Positions 16,382 to 36,500 of a DNA stretch of 64,000 nucleotides are shown piece by piece. A model generated the notes under the pieces. That model was not told the origin of the DNA, ran no database searches, and was given only the letters and a program-made list of their open reading frames with translations. Made by a program: the position numbers and the translations under genes. Numbering within the stretch: the first letter of the stretch is position 1; each line of letters starts with the position of its first letter. The DNA comes from Mycteria americana. Its lineage: Eukaryota; Chordata; Aves; Ciconiiformes; Ciconiidae. The stretch is taken from assembly GCF_035582795.1 (NCBI RefSeq), contig NC_134367.1, forward strand, positions 1,738,501 through 1,802,500. The letters are read 5' to 3'.

Positions 16382-19300
16382 TCATGGGGAGAGGTAGGGC
16401 CGGAAAGTGCGTGGTCGAATCATCATGACCACCTTCCTTAGCGAGTAGTAGTCTGTGTCCTTCCACGAGTACCACACAATACCGTCCGGCCCCAGGATCT
16501 TGCGGTTTTTAATGGAGTATCGGCCGCCCTGTGATGCAGAGAAAGAAGGATGGTCAGGCATGGGAAACGCATCGAAGCATCATCCGGATGGAAGCATCGG
16601 AAAACTGATTGCTCTGAAACACTGGAGCAAAGAGCTTAATGATGATGTGGTGAAAAGAGCATGTAAAGCCCAACATTTTTCAAATGGTCCCAATGGAGCT
16701 GGCATCCATCCATCTCGGGCTGCATGAGTCACCCGTACCACAAGTTTCTACCATGCGGTCCCAAACCCCAGCGTGCAGAGGTGTCTCAATACTCATGTCT
16801 GGCCCACAGCACCGAAAAGGCTGGACTACCTTGGTGCCCAGCACTCATTTTGTTCCCTCCCTGGAGAGCAGAGGCTGGTCAAGCCAGGAAGGATTGCTAT
16901 GATGTGAGGACCAACAACCTCTTCCCAGCCCTGGACCTCGTGTGCTAACGTCTGCATCCTCATCCCTCCACTTTACCTTATACTACACCCCATTGAGGTT
17001 GGAGAAAAAGCACTGGTTGGAGAAAAAGCACCTTGCATCCCCATCCCTCCACCTTTCCTTGTAGTACAACCCGTTGAGGTTGGAGAAAAAGCCCTGGTTG
17101 GGGAAAAAGCACCTTGCATCCCCATCCCTCCACCTTACCTTGTAGTACACCCCATTGAGGTTGGAGAAAAAGCACTGGTGGTACCACCATCCTCCATGGG
17201 AAATCTCAGCACAGATGTTCCCCGAGTCAGGTGTGCTGAAGCTCCTCTTGTTGTGGTACCAGGCAAAGGAATCCTCCACCGTCCCACTGAACCCGTCCAC
17301 GTGCAGGCGGTAATAGTTTGCCTCGTCCTCAATGCTGCAAGCAACAAAGGTGGGGCTATTTAATGGGGAGTGTTTGAGTCTCCTTTCCAACCTGGATACT
17401 GCATTCCTCGTGTGGACACCTAGCAATCATCGAGCTGCTCTGGCCAGGCTCCCTGCTATGACTCATCACCTCTAGAAGCTAAAGATGTTGTATTTTTCCC
17501 TTCTGTGGGATGTGCGTGATTTTATCGTGACTCAGGGCACTTGTTATAGGGCTGAACTGGGCAGACCGTGACTCTAAAACCACAATAAAGGACTGCGGCA
17601 CCTTTGGCAAGACAGTCCCTCTAATTACACAGCACTGCCTCCTCTCCACGTAACGAGCATCCCGCTCTTCACCTAGACTGAACTAATTAGTAATCTGCCC
17701 CTGGGCTAGCAAAGGCTGAAGGTCACTGCCATTACACGTGACGTCTGATGAGAAAAGTCAGGGTGATCATTCAGAGCACGCATTTGCTAGTGGAGAATGC
17801 TCCACGGCACATTCAGGCAATGGGATTTTTTTTTTCCAGCAGTTTCAGCAGTTTTGGGGTCTACTCAAGCCCTCAAGTGTCCATAAGGTGCAGAGCTGGC
17901 TTGGACATCCTGCCATGGTGGGTTACTCCGCAGTCACCCACAAGCATTTCCAGTATAGACAGGGAAGGAGTTCATCTGGGACAGTCTAGACAGACTCGGT
18001 CACCCCTGATTAAGAAAGGATGTGGCTGATGCAGCATGGATAAATAAAACAGCAGAGGAGGGGAAGAGGTATAGACACTGAATGACAGCACATCAGGTCC
18101 AGCAAGTAAAAGCCATGAGTAAAGAGGCTAAAAATCAAAACACGATTCTAAACCAGGGAGATGCTGGAGGACCTGCCCAGCAAGGCCACGGGACTCAGAC
18201 CCCTGGTTTTGACATAGAACTCCATAATTTTGGCAGAAAAAATACTCCTAAGCAGCTGGGGACTGTCCATTGGGTCCTACAGCTGCCTTCCCCTGGGGCT
18301 GTGGATGTTGGCCGTGGCCGAACGACACTGCACATTTACTATGTCACACCCAGGCTTCAACCCGGAGCAAAAATTGGTGGTCAAATCCGGGTGGGGAAGA
18401 AAGGATAGACAGCCTGGGCCCAGTCCGAAAAGCTCTCTAGACAGAGTCACTCTGACCTCAACAGGGTTCCCATGCCTGAAGGTCTCCCAGCATTGAACCA
18501 GTTGCATCTATGAGAACCAGGGAAGGCCATCCATCCCACTTTCTACCTGAAGACCTGGTAGAAGGCGTGTTTGTGTTTGTTGTTCCAGTCCTCCAGGTCA
18601 ATGCGCAGAGAGTAGTCCCCTTGGCTCGTCATCTTGTGGATGTTCTCGTTGCCCAGCCAGAACTCGCCATTGAGGTCCCCAAAGCCCTCCTTGTACTCGT
18701 TCCAGGTCCGGTTGAAGTCAACTGAGCCATCCTGACGCCTCTGGATGACCGTCCAGCCCCCACCTGCCAGGAGAGAGATAACATAAAATGGGGAGTCTCC
18801 AGGGAGCATCCAAAGGTCCCAGACAGACCCCTTACTGGTGTCACCTCTGAGGATCCATCTGCAGCTCAGCAAGGTGTCTCTTTGTCGTGTGTCCTCCCAC
18901 CAACTGGCAAAACACAGTGTCGGTTGCTGCACGGGGATAAAACATGATGCCCGTCATAGCTCACGGAAAGATGCTCCCACCTCTCCCATGTCGGTTCATG
19001 ACGGTGTTCCCCTCTTGATGGTCAGAGGGTCATTCCAGAAGGTGGTTTTAAATGGGAGAGAGATGGTAGTTTTCGGGAGAAATGTTTTGGGACTGGAACA
19101 AACTAGAGATCCTGGAGTTTGGAGATTATTATGTACTGTTCCTGCAGCACCACAGAGGCACAGGAGCTCTCCCAGTATTGTCTCACTGTCTCCATCTGCT
19201 CTCCCATCTGTGCAAATCCCTCTCTCCTCTCTCATTTTATTCCAATATTGTAAGCTTGGGGCGGGGGGGGGGACGGGGACACGGGACTGGAGCCATCTTT

Positions 19301-22300
19301 GTATTTGCTGTTTGTACAGCCTGTCACTCTACAGTGTCCAAGATTGTGTTGATGGTCACGCAAATAATAGTAATGACATAACAAAGACCACGTTGTCTGA
19401 ACAGCTTGTTTCTCAATGAGCACGTGCACCCCAAAGCTGCAATCACCTGTAGCTACTACAACAGGGGAAATTGTAGGTGTGGGGAGCTGAACCCCTTCCT
19501 CCAACATGGGATGTGTTGATGTGACGCGTCCATCTGGGCTGGAGCAGATCCATGGGGCAAGGGACTGACAATCCACCACCCCATTTCCCTGATGATTGTC
19601 ATTATTCTTCCGAAACTCAGGTGTTGCAAACCAATTTTTTTAGTAAGTTTGTGCCTTGGGATGACAGTAGTGTGCTCCGTATGGATATTTAGACAGCAAA
19701 GGTGTGGGAGGTCACCTCCTCCCTCATTTACACTCCAAAATATCTGTGGGAGAGCATCTACCTCCCCACTCCTTACTTCGGCACAGCTACAATTTAGTGG
19801 TTGCCCACACATAGCCCTCAACTACCCGGAGATGCTCCAGGTACCCCCAGTGACTAGCTGCTACTCCAGAAGGGCTTCTCTTTCCCTAAGCCCTGTGTCA
19901 TATCCACTACTGTGTTGCAAATATCTTGGATGCACGAGGACATCTCAAAGAGCACTAAACGCCTGTATTTAGGCAACTGAATCCCAGCCGTAATGTCTGG
20001 TTTGAACTATTCATCCAAACCCCTCCTTTAGTCAGCAGAAAGGACAAGTCCTCTGTCCCTGGAGAAGAGCCCTTATGGAGATGCTACTCTCACTGACTAT
20101 AATGTAGCCTCAGAATAGCTCAGATATAAGATACAACCCTCAGGTTAGACAAATCCCACCCAAAAGTTCTTCTAGAAGATGTTGTAGGTGCCTCCTGCAG
20201 TACCTTCGGTGTCCATCTCACACAGCACTTCAATAGGCATCCCTCCGACCGAGGGCATGATGCTGTAGACCCCAGATCGCCGGAGCCCGTTGTAGTAAAC
20301 GGAAGCACAGTCGATGGGGCAGTTCCTGGCGTGCTTCACCTCTGAGCGAGAAAGCAGAGAAACACGGTGGTTAGTGCACAGCGTGGAGAAAGGGGCATGC
20401 AACCAAAGCCAAGTGCACAGCGTGGAGAAAGGGGCATGCAACCAAAGCCAGCGTTGTTTTCACGCAATCGTAACGCAGAGCGGGACAAATAATCCTGGAT
20501 CGCGAGCTTCTTCTGAAGCTGGAAACCTCTGCAGCACACTAGCTTCACGCCTGAGTGCAGTGGCCTATTAGTGATCACGTTCGTTAGCACAGATCTGCAC
20601 TTAAGGATGCTGTGGCTGAGGGATGGTCTTCGGTTCAACCGGTGTTGTAATGGCAACGCAGAAATGATACGCATTTTGCCAGGCTCAAATGAGATTATAT
20701 CTCACACCGAAATGTTTTATACGTTGATAAAGAATAGGCTGGTTCTCGGGCAATGGTCGGTGTAGATTATAGCAGAAGGTTTTTCTTCTCCCAAACTGCT
20801 GCTGCGGGTTTTGTCTTACAAGGAAAGGGGATCAAAATCATTCTGGAGAACCTAAAGGTGTTTTATATTTGGATATGTCAGGTGGGATGTATTTCACCTG
20901 GCACCAGCCATCGATACTTCAGGCAGGTGGTCTCCACTAGCCCTTAGAGACTTCTGCCGAGGGCAGTTCATCCTGGTTTTACATGGGAGAGGAGAGAAGA
21001 GCCCCTCTCCCTGTCTCCCTCCATCACCTACCAAAGGACCCCAGCCGAGTTCTCTGCACAGAGATGCACGGTGACATCTGAGATGCCCCGGGGTTGGTTT
21101 TCAGCTGTCCCGTGTAGGTCATGTCTTGTATCTGCCAGGCTTACGTGGATGTCTTGGATGCTCCAGAGTATTTCGGGTGGCACTAGGTCTCAGCTGAACC
21201 GAGACCCTAGTCATAGCAGTGGAAAGAGCACATTGAATTCTTCTCTGTCCACGCGTTGTTTGCCTCATTATCTTAAATATCCAGCTCATGTGGGGGGACG
21301 CGTATGTAGACACCCAACATGAAGCATCTTCATCTGTGAGCTGAGCCTCCCTGGTGGGATGAATCCCGTCTTCAGAAAGAAAGGCACAAAAGCAGCTCAC
21401 ACAGCCAGATCCCCTTCCCTTCACCCACACAGCTAGACCAGCCTGAAGCACAGCGTGGCCTGAATACCCAACTGGGACCACTGGGAAAACCAGGAGCCTG
21501 AGGGAGGGCAGAAAGCATGGATGGGACATTGCCCTTCCATGAGGCACACAGAAAGGATGAGACCACGGGACTGGCAGACGATGAAAGCTCCTTGTGAACG
21601 GGAAAGTAAGTCCGGAGGGGAGTGATGGATGAATGGTTGCAACATCCCAGCCCACCAACTGAAGAGCGTGGTGGCTGGGAGGTCTCCCATGGGAGACCCC
21701 AGTGACAGGTTGGGAACATCTTTTGAGGTTGGCACCAACTGGCAGTGCTGCAGGGGAGCGTGTGGGAGAAACCAGTTGTGTGCAGCAAGCAGAGGTCAGG
21801 TAGAGGCAATCTAGACCCAGCAAGCATCTAGGACAGCAGGCAGAGCCTGATCCCACCTGAAGTTAATCAGCTAAAAGTGCTGCATCAACCAGCTGCACGT
21901 GGGCTGGCATTCTCTGGGCCAGAGAAGTCACCATCCCAGTCGCGTCCCGTTATTGAGATGAATCCCAGCTCTGGCTTGCAGGTGGCGGCCGTGGGTATAG
22001 ACATCAACTCTGACGTCCTGGTTTTGCACAGAACATTTCTTGCTCAAGGCTCTGAGGCACCTGGAAGCAGGTACCAGTGGAGCTGCTTACGCTACCTCCA
22101 CCACGACACGGATAGCCAAAAGAGCTTTAAATGAGCGCAATGGAGAAGACTCAGACGAGTTGGCTCAGGGGAGAAGTAACATGACTTTCCCTCCCCAGAC
22201 ATCACCAGCTCAAATCACATCAAGTTTGGTAGGTGAAAGCCATTAGCGGTTCAGCTCTGCATGCCGCCTCAGCCACCCAACCCAGCCTGCTCCTCGGTGG

Positions 22301-25300
22301 AGAAGACAGACGCTGTCCCTACAAGTCCCTCAGCCACAGTTCATGGAAGGCTGGAAGACTACTCAGGAGAAGTGTCGCTTGGTCCTTCTCCGATGTTCCT
22401 CCTGGATATCTGCTGTGGGAGATGGGATTTGGGGCATGGGGACCAGACTGGCACATCTAGTCTTGTCTTCTCGAACACCACCACTCTCTTGCCATGGACC
22501 CAGAGACTTGAACAGGTTGAAAAAGCAGCTCAGTTTCCCTTCCAGCACCTCAAGGTTGAGCTTTGCAGAACCTGGCTATGGTAGGCCCTAGTCAAAATGT
22601 TTTGACAGCAGTGGGTTCTTTGGCAGAAAATGGGGTTTTAGTCAAACTGAACCTTGAATTCTTTAACTGAAGGTTCCCATGTTTGCTATAAAAACCAAAG
22701 AAAACATTCCAGGACTAACAAGGAAAACAGCGAAAAACCTGGCAAATATTTAAATGCATTCATTAAAAAAAAGAGCGTGTGAGAAATAACAGAAAATAGT
22801 TGTTTTTCAAGAGTTTCACCAAAGCCGTAATTTCACGCTGTGAATTTCTGAACAAAAATTAAAAAAAAAAAAAACCAAAAAAAAAATCCTGTTTTTTTTG
22901 TGGGTTATTTTGGATGGAAAAACAGTCCCTGGAGCTGGGAGGAAGGCTCACGCAGCTGACTGCAGGTGGGGTGATGGTGGGAGCAATGCCAATCTGGTTG
23001 TCAGAGCCTGAGCTGGCCTCTGAGAGCATCTCACACCATCCATGGAGAGAAAAAGGAGCCACTGAGGGACAGGACCTCTCTCTTAGACGGCATGGAAACT
23101 ATCCCCAGAGGTGTCCATTGCTCTGAGGAGCCCTCCTGGCTGCCTTGGAAAGGCAGGTTGGCTGAGATAAGACTCCTGGCCAATGCAAAGGGGATTTAAA
23201 GCAGTTTTCCCATACCCTTTCCCTACAACCCGCCTTGAGAGAGGTCCTAAGGGTGAAGCATGCCCTCCCACCCTGCTCCAGCAGGTCCCCATCACCTGGA
23301 TGGTGCATCTCCTCCTGCAGCCTCATCTCGGCAGGGCTGAGGCAGGTGGGGTTACGCCAGGCCCAGTCGGTCAGGACGGAGATGTTGTTTATCTGCGCCT
23401 GCATGTCGTAGAGCAGCGTGGCCTGGATGTGCTGCAGGGTGCTGGCCTCGCTGTACCGATGCTCCAGGTCCTGCACCCGTTGGGCCAAGCTGTGGTTCCA
23501 GCCGGTCGCCTCCTCGTGCTGCGGGCAAGGAGAAAGGCGGGATGGGGGGAAAGCCTGGGGACCGGGGGCATGGCCCCAGGACCCCCCCAGGGATGGGCAG
23601 GCAGGGGAGCAAGCGGGCAGAGGAGCGCTTGCTGCGTGCACCAACACAGACCAAGGATGGTGCCTGCACCCTCACCCTCACCCTGCAGCCCCATACCAGC
23701 TCCCAGCCCACCGTGGGAGCTACAGGCAGCTCGAAATTCCCAGGCTACGGTGCAGGCAGGGCGTGCACAGGCAAGCCTCGGGCTGCGAGAGCAAGGCAAG
23801 TGTCTAGGGTTCCTCTCCAAACACCCTTCTGCCTGCAACCCATTGCAACATGGATATGGCCTCTATGTACTTAGCAATGCCACCACGCCCAGGTTTTCCT
23901 TCCAAAAAGTTGTCCAATCTCCCCTTGAACCGTATAATGTTTTATAACATTATAAGGAGCTCCACAGCTTATCGACACCTTGTATGGTGAGCCACCTCCT
24001 GCTCTCCGGGCAATGGCTGGCGTCCTGCAAACAGCAATGACCACATCCATGCGATGCAAGGAGTGGGTGTGACAGAGCACCCCAGCCCCTTTCACGATCC
24101 TTTTGCTACTTGTTTTTGGACAACCGGTCTCTGATCCTATGCATAATGTACACGCAAGCTGGCTGGAGATGCCCACAGCTCATACCAGGAGATGGGCACC
24201 CCGAGCCCCACCAGCAGGCACCAAAGAGGACCCAGATGCAGTCACTGCAGACGCACTCGCCCCTCTTGTTCGGTGCTCCCTGTCCATTAGATGACAAAGC
24301 AGGCCTTAAACAGCACATCCAAAATCCCACAGCAGCCTGGGAACCCCCCGCTCCCTCCCCTGGGCAATGCAACAGCTCTACACCGTGCTCCCCAAAACCC
24401 TCCCGTGGGTCCGGCAATCCCATACCCCCATCTCAGGTGGAGGGATGCTGGTTCTCCACCAGCACTGCCCTTCCCTGTCCCCTGATGGGGACATCTCTTC
24501 CTCCATCACCCGCTCGGTGTCACCGCACAAGCCACCCCAAGACCCTGAAAATAAATGAGTTTATTTTCTCACCTCCCCGTCCCCAGCATCAGGGGCAAAT
24601 CTGGATTTTTAGGTGTCCGTGCAAGCGTGCGGCTTATTAAATATCCCTGGGGACACAGAGATCTGGCCCTTGACTCATCACTACCTGCAAAACCGCAGTG
24701 GTGCGGCTGAGAGCCGGGCATTTCCTTCAGCTGGAAGGGGTTTGCATGCCCAGAGTATGTTTTCTTCCCTTCCAGCTGCTCCCAGGACCCAGCTCACACC
24801 TCGGTCCCCGTTCCTGCCAGGACACGTCTCAGCTTGCTGTTCCCAGGAGATGGCATCACCACTGCTGGGTTATTGTACCGATAACTAGTGGCAGCTCTAT
24901 AATATCCTTCCCGACGCTGCTTGAGCGTTGCCTGCATGGCCCTGCTAAAAGCCCACCAAGCCCGCCTGTATCCCCAAATCCAGGGAGCAGCTAGCTAGGG
25001 CAGGGGCGGCAAAGTGGGAATTACAGCGTACGATAACACAGTGCCTTCCTTCCCAGGACTGCAATGTCTCTGGCTCTACCATAAATCAGCCGTCCCCCTC
25101 ACCTGCTCCGTGAGCCGTGACTGATACAGGCTTCTTCCAGCTCCCTTCACCCACGCATCAGCTCTCCGAGCAAACCCCGTGATGCTTTCTCCCAGACAGT
25201 CCCCTCCTCCGCAGTTGATACCTTTTTTTTCCTGCTGCTGATTAAAAACGGCACAGCCAGACCACCGTGACGGTCCCCTCATGCTGCTCCCTTCACCACG

Positions 25301-28300: not shown

Positions 28301-29579
28301 GCTCGAACAGCCCTGCAGCCTCTGGCACAGCCTCGCTCTCCCCACGGGGCTGCAGGAAGCCCAAGGGTGAGGATGGAAGGAAGCTAAATAGAGAATAAAT
28401 CACCCCCAGAGCTGGACCACATCAGACCTCATCTCCTCCGAGAGCAAAGACAAGGGTGCTATTCACCCAGAGGTCTCGGGGCTCTTCCAGCTGACACCAG
28501 TAGATTGCTGCTGGTTCTTCTGTGCATCTCATCAACAGCCAAGTGAGACATCTCAGCTGGGAAATGACTCCTGCGGCCAGCAAAACACACCCTGCTCCCT
28601 CCCTGCTCCTGGTTACAACCCCCTGCAAGCTGCTGCTTGCCACTGCCGACAGACGAGCCAAGTGTTTGCTGGGCAAAGCCACGGGGCAGTGCCAAACGTC
28701 TGAGAGCTTCAGAGGTTTCAGCTTCAGGCTGTGGAGCTGGTGAACGGAGCTGGGGTGGGATGAGCACCAGAAAGGAGACTGCAGGGAGGGTGTCATGGGC
28801 TGGAGGTCAGGGTTTCTCCTGCTCGGCTGTGGCCATCAGGGATATGGTCCTTCACCGGCCACCCAAAACTCCAGGTCTAGTCTGGCATCCCGCTATGGGC
28901 AATGGGATGGATCAGCAACCCCTTCTAGGCAGGCTCGAAGGTGGAGGAGATAGCACAGATAAAACACCAAAGGGTTTGTGGCTAATGTTAAGAAAGATCA
29001 GCCCTGGAAGGCTCCTGAGCCATCACAGTAGGAGCAGCTGGGGTTTAATGGATATCCCAGCCTGTGGTCAGAACAACACCATCTGCTTCACCAGGTGTCC
29101 TCCCCCTGCAGCTGCTGGGAGCTGGAAGGGACCATGGGGAGGGACCGTGGGCACCCGCATGGAGGGGGGGTCTGCGAAGGGCAGCCCTTTACCTGGAGCT
29201 CAAGGACTTTGATGCGGTGCCGGTGGTTCCTCAGCTCCTCCTGGAGCTCTGAAATCAGCTCCCGCAGCTCCAGGACCTGCTGCTTGCGCTCTTCGTTCTC
29301 GTGGAGCCAGTAGGACACTTCATCGGTGCAACGAAACATGTCCGGGCACCGCTGCTCGTCCCCCTGCGGCAGCGTGGCCACGATCTTACAGCGGCCATTG
29401 GGCAGCACCTGGTTGCTGTACTCCCCGCACTGGATCAGGCCCGTGCCCTTCTGGGGACCCTCGTGGTCTCTGTACGCCGCGGGCAGGGATTTCTGCAGCG
29501 AGGGGCTGCTCAGCGCGGCCACGAGGATGAGGGACAGCAAACCTGCCCTGGCAGAGCCGGTGCCGGGGCAGACCTCCAT
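16382..29579 (-). CDS. Secreted fibrinogen-domain protein (angiopoietin-like / FGL1-like), six coding exons, 435 aa
   Basis: Coding exons, 5' to 3' on the minus strand: 29579-29193, 23518-23296, 20341-20204, 18763-18547, 17334-17139 and 16528-16382. All junctions are GT/AG and phase-consistent. A signal peptide (hydrophobic core LLSLILVAALS, residues 14-24) is followed by a Cys-rich segment (Cys51, 64, 78, 84), a coiled coil (about 92-165) and a fibrinogen C-terminal domain (about 207-435) with GGGWTVIQRRQDGS, GEFWLGNENIH, GGWWYHQCFFSNLNGVYY and MMIRPRTFRP. Cys211/215, Cys240-type LCEMD and Cys363/376 give the usual disulphides. N-glycosylation sequons are NHS, NIS and NRT. The calcium loop before Cys363 is short (STPDSGNIC). 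The layout is angiopoietin-like, while the C-terminus (GIVWYSWKD...YSLRKVVM) is closest to FGL1, so FGL1-like protein is my best guess; receptor and role are unknown. An in-frame ATG at 29627 would add 16 residues; 29579 is preferred because it gives a normal signal peptide. Confidence 0.9.
16971..17175 (-). repeat. 81-bp tandem repeat across the exon 5 splice donor of the fibrinogen-like gene
   Basis: TTGAGG anchors at 16993, 17074 and 17155 show an exact 81-bp period. The copy at 17139-17175 is the true end of exon 5, coding for CFFSNLNGVYYK followed by GTAAGG. The two further copies, reading into the intron, again encode CFFSNLNG-type sequence. The middle copy has GAAAGG where the donor should be. 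The far copy keeps a GTAAAG donor but has a stop codon just before it. A smaller internal repeat of GGTTGGAGAAAAAGCAC is also visible. Confidence 0.92.
20373..20450 (-). repeat. Perfect 39-bp tandem duplication upstream of exon 3 of the fibrinogen-like gene
   Basis: 20373-20411 and 20412-20450 are identical 39-mers (AGTGCACAGCGTGGAGAAAG...). On the minus strand they lie 32-109 nt before the exon 3 acceptor. The near edge touches a CTAAC branch-point match (20374-20370). Perfect identity implies a recent event. Confidence 0.93.
22859..22896. repeat. A-rich/T-rich low-complexity tract
   Basis: Two A homopolymers followed by T8, in an AT-rich part of the second intron of the fibrinogen-like gene. 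It may be the tail of an old retroposon, but no element body was recognised. Confidence 0.6.
23895..24160 (+). mobile_element. Possible ancient CR1-family LINE remnant
   Basis: The order AAGTTGTCCAATCTCCCCTTGAACC, GGAGCTCCACAGCTTATCGAC, CACCTTGTATGGTGAGCCAC, GGAGTGGGTGTGACAGAGCA resembles the antisense 3' region of CR1-like LINEs of reptiles and birds as I remember it. It is highly diverged and intronic, with no target-site repeats visible. Confidence 0.35.
26112..26235 (-). mobile_element. CR1 LINE 3'-end fragment
   Basis: Read on the minus strand, the sequence contains AAGGCCCTGAGCAACCAGAT, TTGGCCCTGCTTTCTGCAGG, GAGACCTCCAGCCATGTCTT and CCAACCTCAG. These are in the order of the 3' end of chicken-repeat-1 elements (GAGCAACCTG, CAGGGGGTTGGA, GACCTCCAGAGGTCCCTTCCAACC). 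The terminal 8-bp repeats are not preserved. It is a short, old, 5'-truncated copy in the first intron of the fibrinogen-like gene and supports an avian origin. Confidence 0.75.
27305..27425. repeat. Alternating purine-pyrimidine (GT/GC/AT) tract
   Basis: Built on GCGCGCGTGCAC, GTATATATGCATGTG and GTGCACGTATG, in the first intron of the fibrinogen-like gene. It is degenerate rather than a clean microsatellite and could form Z-DNA or cruciforms. Confidence 0.65.
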
Positions 29580-36153: not shown

Positions 36154-36500
36154 CCTGGCCATGCCTGGCGATGCCTGGTGATGCCCTGGTGATACACTGG
36201 TAAGGCCTGGTGAGACCCTGGCGATGCCCTGGTTATACCTGGTGATGCCTGGTGATGGTTGGTGATGCCCTGGTTGTACCTGGAGATGCCTGGTGATGGT
36301 TGGTGATGCCCTGGTTGTACCTGGAGATGCCTGGTGATGGTTGGTGATGCCCTGGTGATGCCCTGGTTGTACCTGGAGATGCCTGGTGATGGTTGGTGAT
36401 GCCCTGGTGATGCCTGGTGATACCTGGTTATGCCTGGTGATGCCCTGGTGATGCCTGGTTATGCCTGGTGATGCCCTGGTGATGCCCTGGTGATGCCTGA
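36154..36500 (+). repeat. Minisatellite of TGATGCCTGG-type units
   Basis: About 345 bases of 10-12-base units (GATGCCTGGT, GATGCCCTGGT, GATACCTGGT). Inside it is a higher-order 41-base block containing GTTGTACCTGGAGATGCC, present three times (one copy has an extra 12-base unit). All frames are open over parts of it; this is a by-product of the repeat, not evidence of coding. Confidence 0.95.

Follow-up and report, generated by a model that had tools for sequence, protein, structure and literature searches.

A minus-strand tandem array in a fibrinogen-domain gene repeats the end of exon 5 together with its splice donor and the first bases of intron 5. We consider it most probable, at about 70%, that this array is an old, decaying duplication of the exon-intron border that now lies within the intron, with the donor at 17138 as the productive one and the protein unchanged. 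A border duplication can destroy a gene, as one in human MSH6 shows; here it sits in an otherwise intact gene and offers a natural test of the choice among repeated donors. Read in this way, the array would be a modest, concrete case of a gene surviving while its extra donors decay. Positions are those of the window, which is the whole stretch of DNA analysed (64,000 nucleotides).

The gene and its reading frame

The gene model has six exons joined by five GT-AG introns and encodes an uninterrupted protein of 435 amino acids (Table 1). The protein matches Fibrinogen_C (PF00147) with 244 bits (E 2.1e-72) against a cut-off of 22 bits, which places it in that family, and the best-scoring solved chains for a query of exons 4-6 are angiopoietin-related proteins 2 and 6. 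Exon 5 encodes about five residues fewer (FSTPD-----SGN) than several relatives, in what is presumably the calcium-loop region. Two relatives in the same genome, at L037 and L038, have an intron close to the place of this shortfall. Within intron 2, at 20373-20450, a perfect 39-bp tandem duplication lies just before a branch-point-like CACTAACC and the exon 3 acceptor.

Table 1. Positions of the gene model and of the elements of the array
Feature	Position	Strand	Basis
Exon 1, counted from its predicted ATG (29579-29577)	29193..29579	-	gene model
Exon 2	23296..23518	-	gene model
Exon 3	20204..20341	-	gene model
Exon 4	18547..18763	-	gene model
Exon 5, ending in copy 1 of the repeated exonic part (36 nt)	17139..17334	-	gene model, tblastn to relatives
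Intron 5, 610 nt	16529..17138	-	gene model
Exon 6, starts GGRYS and ends at the stop codon	16382..16528	-	gene model
81-bp tandem array, 2.8 copies, spanning the exon 5/intron 5 border	16953..17179	-	TRF and copy alignment
Copy 1 donor GT (AAG|GTAAGG)	17137..17138	-	top score of 45 GT sites in 17336-16529
Nested 18-nt duplication, copy 2 (TGCTTTTTCCCCAACCAG); acceptor-like CAG ends at 17094	17094..17111	-	sequence, copy alignment
Copy 2 dead donor position, GA replacing GT	17056..17057	-	copy alignment
Nested 18-nt duplication, copy 3 (TGCTTTTTCTCCAACCAG); acceptor-like CAG ends at 17013	17013..17030	-	sequence, copy alignment
In-frame TAG of copy 3; 6 nt separate it from the copy 3 donor	16983..16985	-	copy alignment, translation
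Copy 3 donor GT (AAG|GTAAAG), A rather than G at +5	16975..16976	-	donor scoring

Structure of the array

TRF describes the array as having a period of 81, 2.8 copies, 91% matches, 0% indels and a score of 391. The border part of the unit comprises 36 nt from the end of exon 5 and 27 nt from the start of intron 5 (24 nt in the last copy). Alignment of the copies resolves the 81 nt into this 63-nt border and an 18-nt nested duplication that is present in copies 2 and 3 and absent from copy 1. The 18-nt piece (TGCTTTTTCTCCAACCAG in copy 3 and, with one change, TGCTTTTTCCCCAACCAG in copy 2) repeats the opening 15 nt of the exonic part and adds CAG. Its joint shares ACC with both source sites, and the joint of the unit has a CAG-like overlap and two additional bases, a pattern expected from slippage or from small template switches. 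By-products of the nested repeat are an acceptor-like pyrimidine run and CAG in each of copies 2 and 3.

The donor positions of the three copies (17138, 17057 and 16976) are spaced by exactly 81, and read AAG|GTAAGG in copy 1, AAG|GAAAGG in copy 2 and AAG|GTAAAG in copy 3. Translated from exon 5 past its donor, the frame gives VRWRDGDARCFFPNQGFFSNLNGLYYKERWRDGDARCFFSNQCFFSNLNGV and then the TAG, being open through copy 2 and closed in copy 3. In these respects the preliminary description was accurate: it had reported an 81-bp repeat of the end of exon 5 with its GT donor and first intron bases, an in-frame copy 2 with GA at the donor position, and a copy 3 with a GT donor and a stop just upstream. 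The span it gave, 16971-17175, was correctly located and slightly short of the extent found by TRF, and it made no mention of the nested 18-nt piece.

The architecture suggests that a compound event at the exon 5/intron 5 border, probably the first, produced the 81-nt unit with its 63 nt of border and nested 18-nt repeat, and that one more duplication of 81 nt followed. This order (border, 18-nt repeat, border, then the further duplication) was inferred by eye. The original donor at 17138 would have stayed productive and joined to exon 6, leaving the protein unchanged, and copies 2 and 3, being intronic, would have decayed, copy 2 by loss of its donor and copy 3 by gain of a stop and a weaker donor. 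Loss of the second donor and weakening of the third may be what makes the arrangement tolerable.

Comparison with known border duplications

Tandem duplication across an exon-intron border is an already documented class in human and plant (PMC9818763, PMC4974935, PMC2812944); to call it unusual, as had been done, is fair for the present site. The human MSH6 variant c.3936_4001+8dup, the closest functional case in print, is reported as a 74-bp duplication of the exon end and 8 intron bases (PMC9818763). In the carrier tested, the duplicated allele is reported to have yielded no normal transcript, with transcripts of the downstream duplicated donor exceeding exon-skipped ones 7:1; for some other carriers the exon-skipped product alone is described (PMC9818763). 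The first donor therefore cannot be assumed always to be the winner. The copies of the present array lie head to tail, each with an exon end, a donor position and an intron start, as in a border duplication of the MSH6 type: in both cases the exon end and first intron bases are duplicated and a donor copy lies inside the intron, with units of 74 and 81. Whereas the MSH6 allele is described as a frameshifting disease variant of a family, with one added copy and use of the downstream donor or skipping (PMC9818763), the present array has 2.8 copies, a period divisible by three, a dead donor in copy 2, a weakened one in copy 3 and an intact frame.

A potato gene is similar in that the duplication crosses an exon-intron border with its splicing signals and the copies differ by several bases, but there the acceptor side is reported as duplicated, with a new intron shown by RNA-seq, and here it is the donor side (PMC4974935). 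Internal tandem repeats at exon-intron boundaries are also described in human segmental duplications, where they change the structure of genes and possibly create new introns (PMC2812944). The repeat has the same placement in those paralogs, yet they are reported as recent differences with transcript support (PMC2812944), and the present case is one gene known from genomic sequence. In Drosophila, novel introns are described as arising from tandemly duplicated proto-splice sites, and there too a duplicated AG|GT-type site gives the splice signals; those were duplications of coding sequence turned into introns, whereas the present unit already contains intron sequence (PMC2891723). A link between NMD and novel introns reported for Drosophila (PMC2809761) was not applied here, because the present stop would be only 6 nt short of the last junction.

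Donor choice and predicted products

Splicing from 17138 to 16529 yields NLNGVYYK-GGRYS, that is YYKGGRYS, which fits the YxGGxY of the family, a motif that is uninterrupted in relatives of the same genome (for example WYRGGHY and YYLGGHY). Because 13 related genes read straight through this point, the copy 1 donor joined to exon 6 gives the family sequence without insertion. Donors were scored with a frequency matrix for donor sites. On this scale the copy 1 donor has 11.4, the best of the 45 GT sites in exon 5 and intron 5, and its U1 pairing of -10.0 kcal/mol is the strongest of seven sites compared. These values point to 17138 as the donor in use.

It had been suggested that skipping of the first donor could add CFFSNLNG-type segments to the fibrinogen domain. 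Such an isoform, with the domain complete, is unlikely and we do not expect it, because copy 2 is without a donor, copy 3 reaches its stop ahead of its own donor, and only three GT or GC sites lie in frame downstream of the true donor and upstream of that stop, all of them very weak (0.1, 0.1 and 1.4, compared with 11.4).

Of the alternatives, the one that survives best, though an unlikely one, is live donor competition. The copy 3 donor would be used in a sizeable share of transcripts, and an NMD-escaping product lacking the last 48 residues of the domain would lower or modulate output. Use of this donor is predicted to lengthen the exon by 162 nt and to read 51 codons into the array, ending in a 438-aa protein that lacks the 48 residues of exon 6, with its stop 6 nt upstream of the last junction. 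Under the 50-nt rule, a stop too near the last junction escapes NMD, so this mRNA should escape it. The matrix score of the copy 3 donor, 8.1, is close to that of the exon 1 donor (8.2) and stands beside 7.4, 4.7 and 5.3 for the other donors of the gene. With each of the three flank lengths used, the site is also predicted to be more open than the copy 1 donor (unpaired fractions 0.58/0.51/0.63 versus 0.51/0.35/0.31), and human MSH6 is a precedent for the choice of a downstream donor. However, copy 3 remains below copy 1 on both measures (8.1 versus 11.4; -7.6 versus -10.0 kcal/mol), and its U1 pairing is weaker than that of three of the gene's four other donors (-8.6, -8.5, -5.6 and -8.1 kcal/mol). 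The extra copies give no sign of constraint either, in a comparison to which 8 changes lend little power. The earlier idea of donor competition holds up on the matrix score and the human precedent, with a weaker result by U1 pairing.

Likewise improbable is a standing natural switch, in which the duplicate donor diverts part of the transcripts to the NMD-escaping truncated protein, and in which selection that restored the upstream donor left its traces in the dead donor of copy 2 and the weakened one of copy 3. On the reading as a decaying duplication, the copy 3 donor may still be used at a leaky level, which would give the truncated 438-aa protein without exon 6. In light of the MSH6 precedent and of the matrix score and accessibility of copy 3, steady use of 17138 is something that we infer.

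We give little credence to the possibility that the 36 nt at 17012-16977, between the acceptor-like site and the donor of copy 3, serve intron 5 as a decoy or poison exon. A CAG after a pyrimidine run at 17013 and the donor at 16976 do delimit such a piece, and its inclusion is predicted to end the protein at 396 amino acids. The intron that would precede it (17138-17013, bounded by signals of two copies and leading to the stop) is merely 126 nt, the acceptor-like tracts of the array have 11/16 pyrimidines compared with 13-14/16 in all five acceptors of the gene model, and the copies carry no signal of selection.

A hairpin formed by the array RNA was rejected as an explanation. The array shows nothing unusual in its predicted folding (z -0.16), and 84 of 200 shuffles fold at least as well.

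Divergence of the copies

Over the 63 shared positions, the three-way comparison assigns 8 private changes, four each to copies 2 and 3 and none to copy 1. A count of 0/8 in copy 1 has P = 0.039 under equal rates, on only 8 changes. Copy 1 thus behaves like a constrained exon end while the rest seems to drift, within what such small numbers can tell, and copies 2 and 3 appear neutral. Two of the 8 private changes fall in the donor 9-mer, which is no excess (P = 0.32), and selection on the array donors was rejected on this count.

Pairwise, the copies differ at 4/63, 4/63 and, between copies 2 and 3, 9/77 positions. The neutral rate in birds is about 2e-9 per site and year. At that rate copies 2 and 3 would have been diverging for some tens of millions of years, an estimate of very large uncertainty.

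Uniqueness and genomic background

A 451-base query has one match place in the whole assembly (1.35 Gb, 279 contigs), in a search that skips simple repeats and very common words. Tandem arrays are in general prone to assembly error, and the array could be such an error or an expansion in the one haplotype sequenced. We regard this as very improbable. A misassembled duplicate would be near identical, whereas these copies differ as given above. The 8 private differences in 63 shared positions and the single genome match make a simple assembly echo unlikely, and the array is presumably present in other individuals.

As background, 39 loci were chosen from the same genome for the related genes that they contain or adjoin (L003-L028 and L035-L047; 210,515 bases, with some overlap). 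In this sample a single locus, L013, has arrays with a period of 30-200, at least 2.5 copies and a score of at least 200; the window has them at two places, 16953-17179 and 36154-36499. Given these counts, a strong array at a splice border is uncommon and within what mutation gives. The second place in the window, 36154-36499, is a minisatellite with periods of 10, 31 or 41 bp (8.3 copies of 41 bp). L013 is a repeat-rich stretch of contig C261; at L013:801-3117, dense tandem arrays lie on either side of a fibrinogen-domain exon, and a possible CAG|GC border follows the exon.

Beyond the assembly, a pattern search for relatives gave 41 matching stretches in genome_contigs, none of them confirmed, and 3 in viral_contigs, of which one was confirmed over query residues 6-19 on a contig of 6,000 bases.

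Position and origin of intron 5

Because its position is read straight through by 13 related genes of the same genome, intron 5 may have been gained and may be specific to this lineage. The 13 genes comprise 11 from a set of 26 other matches and two further ones on L035 and L036. The remainder of the 26 are three upstream exons of genes already counted (L021, L025 and L026), four in which, by eye, a donor-like GT lies close by but differs in position or phase (L012, L014, L015 and L022), the ambiguous L013, and seven too different here to compare (L005, L006, L016, L017, L018, L020 and L024).

Least probable of all is that intron 5 was born by tandem duplication and left the array as a remnant: a gained intron would suit this reading, but the units already hold 24-27 nt of intron 5, which makes the intron and its donor older than the array, and the likeness is only at chance level both between the rest of the intron and the unit (241/500 shuffles as good) and between the start of exon 6 and the array (350/500), so it was set aside as the main reading. 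Descent of intron 5 from a mobile or repeated element was also rejected, as a 421-base query of the remainder of the intron finds one place in the genome. In some of the genes that read through the position, the last intron lies farther upstream, for example after AACAG in the gene at L035, which we take to be FGL1-like.
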